This document shows positions 23,314 through 27,922 of a stretch of 64,000 bases of DNA, piece by piece; the first letter of the stretch is position 1; each line of letters opens with the position of its first letter. Under the pieces are notes generated by a model, which was not told the DNA's origin, did no database searches, and saw only the letters and a program-made list of their open reading frames with translations. Origin of the DNA: Bradyrhizobium betae (GTDB lineage Bacteria > Pseudomonadota > Alphaproteobacteria > Rhizobiales > Xanthobacteraceae). The stretch is taken from NCBI RefSeq assembly GCF_008932115.1, contig NZ_CP044543.1, forward strand, positions 5,152,501 through 5,216,500. The letters run 5' to 3'. A program made the position numbers and the translations under genes.

Positions 23314-27922
<4,609 letters not shown>

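Follow-up and report, generated by a model that had tools for sequence, protein, structure and literature searches.

Does the photosynthesis gene cluster of the Bradyrhizobium betae type strain hold a working bchH? The type strain is cited as representing a species that is non-symbiotic and has the full set of photosynthesis cluster genes, and whether that cluster can make pigment is decided by the wholeness of its only bchH. The product of bchH is the large subunit of Mg-chelatase, the first enzyme of bacteriochlorophyll synthesis. In the deposited B. betae sequence, bchH spans 23288-27015 on the plus strand of the window (the whole 64,000-nucleotide stretch of DNA that was analysed), and its reading frame moves by -1 at a run of five G residues at 25786-25790. 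Should the break prove an assembly error, both the genome and the count of 333 pseudogenes would need correction with short reads; if it is real, the type strain presents a fresh natural loss of bchH in a cluster that is otherwise intact. The features of the locus are the following:

23288..25909, plus strand: N-terminal frame of bchH, from the ATG at 23288 to the TGA at 25907-25909, 873 amino acids
25735..27015, plus strand: C-terminal frame of bchH, shifted by -1 relative to the N half, open from 25735, with the GTG at 25876 as its first ATG, GTG, or TTG
25786..25790, plus strand: run of five G residues, site of the frame change; six G residues in the related genome G022 in the alignment of genus loci
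25790..25909, plus strand: out-of-frame tail of the N-terminal product, without family resemblance

The N-terminal frame carries about 833 residues of family sequence before it enters the out-of-frame tail, and in the C-terminal frame family sequence starts at the conserved Pro-Gly-Gly-Asp (PGGD) motif. The letters at the frame change are GCG CCG GGG GCG, and the missing base lies inside this motif. Instead of the continuous frame of about 1200-1250 residues seen in the BchH family, the locus has open reading frames of 873 and 379 amino acids in different frames. The NCBIfam BchH model PRK13405.1 (1245 positions) matches the N half over positions 1-839 with 1432.8 bits (cut-off 1166) and the 379-residue C-terminal reading frame over positions 868-1245 with 764.1 bits; a six-frame search of the whole genome places the second piece at positions 836-1245. 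The best CobN model scores lower on both (271.6 bits for the N half and 288.1 bits for the C half), and both halves are members of the BchH family, not of CobN. The original prediction had placed a one-base frameshift at this GGGGG run, as the reading frames, the profile matches, and alignment with 25 loci of the genus confirm, and the two PRK13405.1 scores bear out its view that both halves are conserved. It had also computed a product of 1242 residues after addition of one G, which is the length encoded by the intact bchH of G022.

The junction was compared across the genus and beyond it. Among 265 genus genomes searched, 26 exceeded the BchH cut-off, B. betae included. The 25 other genomes have a bchH free of internal stops as far as their sequence goes (the copy in G247 is cut by a contig end), and in the alignment all 25 have one base more than B. 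betae at the junction. The nearest genome, G022, reads GGGGGG there; in the other 24 loci the run is interrupted, mostly as GGGCGG or otherwise as a GGTGG-type sequence, and Gly-Gly-Asp is encoded in all of them. Across 36.9 kb of cluster sequence, G022 and B. betae are 92.4% identical, and the rpoB identity of 98% is the best among the 12 genomes matched (13 searched). A wider set of 105 loci combined the 25 from the genus with 80 from a genome collection, in which species may overlap. The frame is kept at the junction in all 100 testable loci, namely 99 intact genes and one from an Oxalobacteraceae metagenome-assembled genome (L101) that is in frame at the junction and broken about 170-190 residues into the C half; the other five of the 105 stop before the C half. 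Judged from these alignments, the frameshift is single and private to B. betae, and the pattern is not one of chance, the frame being kept in every testable locus.

Several apparent sharers of the break were set aside. The match to one locus (L075) at first seemed to extend across the shifted tail, but that locus has an uninterrupted bchH of 1242 amino acids. Five truncated BchH proteins, fetched from among the protein matches listed, include none with the same break: P0003, P0037, and P0042 have PGGD in frame, P0093 stops before PGGD, and P0058 loses its frame about 20 residues after it. The same protein search gave no match above 94% identity among the matches listed, which represent 90% clusters within which a near-identical copy may hide. 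A search for plasmid-borne bchH genes for comparison returned distant matches only. Twelve genus genomes (L019-L030) encode a shorter BchH of 1202-1204 amino acids, in which some 35 model positions (773-807) immediately ahead of the junction region are missing; this form is perhaps the other of two published cluster types. In the portions of text returned by literature searches on a bchH frameshift in Bradyrhizobium and on bacteriochlorophyll in Bradyrhizobium betae, the break is not mentioned.

The remaining pigment genes appear whole. The original prediction had allowed for a second bchH elsewhere, and whole-genome searches with PF11965 and PF02514 found none: PF11965 has a single match, which is the broken bchH, and PF02514 matches bchH and one CobN only (1082 amino acids, PRK12321.1, 1673.3 bits). 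It had also regarded bchF as not intact, which was mistaken; bchF lies inside the open reading frame at 19698-20465 and matches TIGR02020 with 194.1 bits over model positions 1-144 of 145, and this nearly full-length match rules it out as a second broken gene. Full-length bchD is located at C1:5139195-5140892 (566 amino acids, PRK13406.1, 818.5 bits) and is directly preceded by a bchI-like frame, labelled bchI from its position and the published gene list (PMC6856286). At least one curated cut-off is passed by each of bchX, bchY, bchZ, bchG, bchP, pufL, pufM, ppsR, bchF, bchN, bchB, bchL, bchM, and puhA. Of the 39 G022 genes that find a match of at least 70% in the 400 kb surrounding the cluster, 37 are full length in B. 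betae, the exceptions being bchH and an over-extended start before bchY. This second apparent frame split was rejected, the BchY model beginning at residue 75 of the reading frame.

Smaller differences from G022 occur elsewhere in the window. The N-terminus of bchL (27025-27030) has gaps of 16 and 2 bases that jointly keep the frame, a run upstream of bchF (19638) is C6 in B. betae and C7 in G022, and a run between pufM and ppsR (7842) is A5 in B. betae and A6 in G022. Only positions 1-36851 of the window align to the 400 kb around the G022 cluster, in agreement with the published lack of collinearity between the clusters of B. betae and B. cosmicum (PMC7656271).

The provenance of the assembly bears directly on the break. 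Strain PL7HG1T of B. betae was sequenced by PacBio RS II alone (two SMRT cells, 175-fold coverage) and assembled with HGAP and Quiver, and short reads are unmentioned (PMC6856286); the assembly is of the long-read-only type, unpolished by short reads, that is expected of a PacBio homopolymer error. In that paper bchH is named among the cluster genes, with no word on any break (PMC6856286). The genome of 7,419,402 bp comprises the chromosome CP044543 (7,150,095 bp) and a plasmid of 269,307 bp (PMC6856286; Table 1, PMC7656271). The reading preferred here, with a probability of about 0.6, is that bchH is intact and that its six-G run stands one G short in the deposited chromosome, a homopolymer undercalled in an assembly made from PacBio RS II reads alone; the missing G would be present in the organism. 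A synonymous C-to-G change in GGGCGG probably made the six-G run in an ancestor shared with G022, although GGGCGG would read identically if its C had simply been lost. The cell would keep G6 as G022 does, one G would have been undercalled in assembly, and a normal BchH of 1242 residues would be made.

An assembly error is favoured because the sequence derives from PacBio RS II alone and long runs show a tentative length bias, because G022 has G6 and the 24 other genus loci have one base more with the frame kept in every testable locus, and because both halves are constrained and free of stops. It is also favoured because an assembly of similar make, that of Streptomyces albus SM254 (7.17 Mb, 73% GC), was produced with HGAP at 262x and Quiver to QV >50 and still carried 205 indels, almost all of them in runs of G or C, which were found by Illumina polishing (PMC4832174). 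A further reason is the 333 pseudogenes listed for PL7HG1T vs 173 and 122 for two B. cosmicum strains, which represent its sister species (Table 1, PMC7656271), counts that vary with pipeline, plasmid, and mobile elements.

Homopolymer lengths were compared between B. betae and G022 over 683 kb of aligned sequence (625 kb and 58 kb), counting length differences with clean flanks. Among runs of at least five that differ in length, 15 are shorter and 4 longer in B. betae (p = 0.019, uncorrected, the cut at five having been set after the coding-run result), which is the pattern expected from undercalled long runs. Restriction to G/C runs of at least five leaves 12 shorter vs 4 longer (p = 0.077), and runs of 2-4 have no such bias (91 shorter, 110 longer). 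The 15:4 shortening hints that other frameshifts in the B. betae assembly may be errors as well. However, wide miscalling of coding runs is disfavoured because bchH alone is shorter among 30 G/C runs of at least six in G022 genes, 12 having the same length in B. betae and 17 differing by substitutions only. A/T coding runs agree in all 12 comparable cases, and homopolymer run totals over the first 400 kb have no obvious difference between the genomes.

An error is also disfavoured because frame-split genes are no commoner in B. betae than in G022. Before any filtering, 7 of 528 B. betae genes are split by a frame change in mid-gene vs 14 of 539 in G022, and in the cluster set 1 of 40 vs 0 of 41; of the seven B. 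betae splits, several are artefacts of the start and two or more look genuine. At C1:6317135 a one-base difference in a run of three to four G residues changes the frame, and at C1:6346934 a two-base difference does so; the genes at these positions are whole in G022 (623 and 555 amino acids, respectively).

The age of the lesion can be gauged from selection on its two halves. Lineage-specific codon changes were assigned with nine outgroup loci, with a further 6 and 6 from the N half staying unassigned. Nonsynonymous/synonymous changes in the N half number 12/47 in B. betae vs 10/50 in G022, those in the C half 6/31 vs 10/36, and those in both halves together 18/78 vs 20/86. Neither half of the B. 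betae gene contains a stop codon, and signs of a pseudogene (relaxed constraint, further lesions) were found in neither, although a very young pseudogene would look alike. These ratios, like those of G022, and the lack of stops in the halves indicate that selection on bchH lasted until very recently or continues. The C half has stayed under selection like that seen in the sister lineage, so that the break is young, absent from the organism, or tolerated.

The main alternative, tentative but credible, is that bchH was truly, and very recently, inactivated in the B. betae strain by the loss of one base from the G6 run. BchH would then lack its C-terminal third, Mg-chelatase would fail, protoporphyrin IX would go undiverted, and bacteriochlorophyll would not be made; the remaining photosynthesis cluster would be intact because the loss is young. 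That a bchH truncated by its C-terminal third should yield no bacteriochlorophyll is expected from established pathway knowledge. Replication slippage is an ordinary kind of mutation for a G6 run, the other coding runs match G022 with no excess of frame-split genes, and the whole-genome searches found no second bchH. On the other hand, the lesion is single, constraint is unrelaxed in both halves, and the break is, by coordinates, the only frame-changing indel in reading frames of at least 90 amino acids within the 36.9 kb that align with G022. In both site and kind, the change also matches the known error of the sequencing method (PMC6856286; PMC4832174). ChlH binds protoporphyrin IX and is needed by Mg-chelatase, and one study names E625 and E660 of the cyanobacterial protein as important (PMC13297055); both map by alignment to the N half of bchH, with a 20-residue numbering offset inferred. 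Relatives in the clade seem not to rely on the pigment, which would fit a recent loss: B. cosmicum 58S1T and S23321 carry the cluster yet formed no pink colonies under the conditions tested (PMC7656271, section 6). Given this result for B. cosmicum, absence of pink colour alone would be no proof of loss.

The original prediction offered three readings: a sequence error, loss of this copy, and -1 slippage on the G tract. The error and a recent loss both stand, and slippage finds no support beyond the G tract. Under slippage, the five-G run would be real and some full-length BchH would arise through -1 ribosome slippage, in which the P-site GGG re-pairs one base back, or through transcript slippage. 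This is very improbable. A single tRNA could re-pair on the G5 run (zero frame CCG GGG GCG, -1 frame GGG GGC), the C half has kept its constraint, and genes of the Mg-chelatase type include a real -1 frameshifting family, fs-chlD (PMC3711429 and PMC9227772). But the split occurs in 1 of 26 bchH-bearing genus genomes and in none of the 100 testable loci, the frame overlap at 25735-25906 contains no X-XXY-YYZ heptamer (the site reads CCGGGGGCG), and the best Shine-Dalgarno-like match just upstream is a poor 4 of 6. In simple folds, the 100 nucleotides at 25791-25890 reach -28.3 kcal/mol vs -30.1 for shuffled sequences (z = +0.59; 149 of 200 shuffles as stable). The authors of PMC3711429 describe chelatase frameshifting as occurring in clusters of related genes, and where a BLAST-supported frameshift is a singleton they regard it as a probable sequencing error. 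Programmed frameshifting in bchH is probably not at work; if it were, the large chelatase subunit would depend on frameshifting for its synthesis, and the slippage would act as a switch for making bacteriochlorophyll.

Least probable of all is a working split BchH assembled from two separate chains, for although the cut falls at a domain border and C-terminal ChlH pieces have been solved alone (6ys9, 410 residues, starting at the residues that follow the junction; 5ewu, 388 residues), the first ATG, GTG, or TTG in the C frame is a GTG at 25876 that has no purine-rich ribosome site (upstream ATTCCCAGCGCCTTTGCC) and would omit the conserved PTGRNLHGFDPFR segment, and the split is absent from all relatives examined.

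The break in bchH is right as an observation and ordinary as biology, as comparison with known systems illustrates. Both halves belong to the BchH/ChlH family (PRK13405.1, TIGR02025) and stand in the usual bchF-N-B-H-L-M order; in contrast to the testable relatives, which are continuous at the junction, the B. betae frame is cut by one base. Like the B. betae bchH, the fs-chlD genes code for a chelatase subunit and contain a -1 shift, but they encode the medium rather than the large subunit (PMC9227772 and PMC3711429). Their shift has an AT-rich slippery site, tandem re-pairing, downstream RNA structure, and conservation across taxa, none of which was found at bchH (PMC9227772). A recent frameshift pseudogene formed by slippage in a short G run would have the same one-base change in an otherwise intact gene and, from sequence alone, would look like an assembly error. 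The residual PacBio RS II/HGAP/Quiver indels of SM254 resemble the B. betae case in the one-base change in a G run, the method, and the GC-rich genome; those errors were proved by Illumina reads, whereas the B. betae break is known from the assembled sequence.
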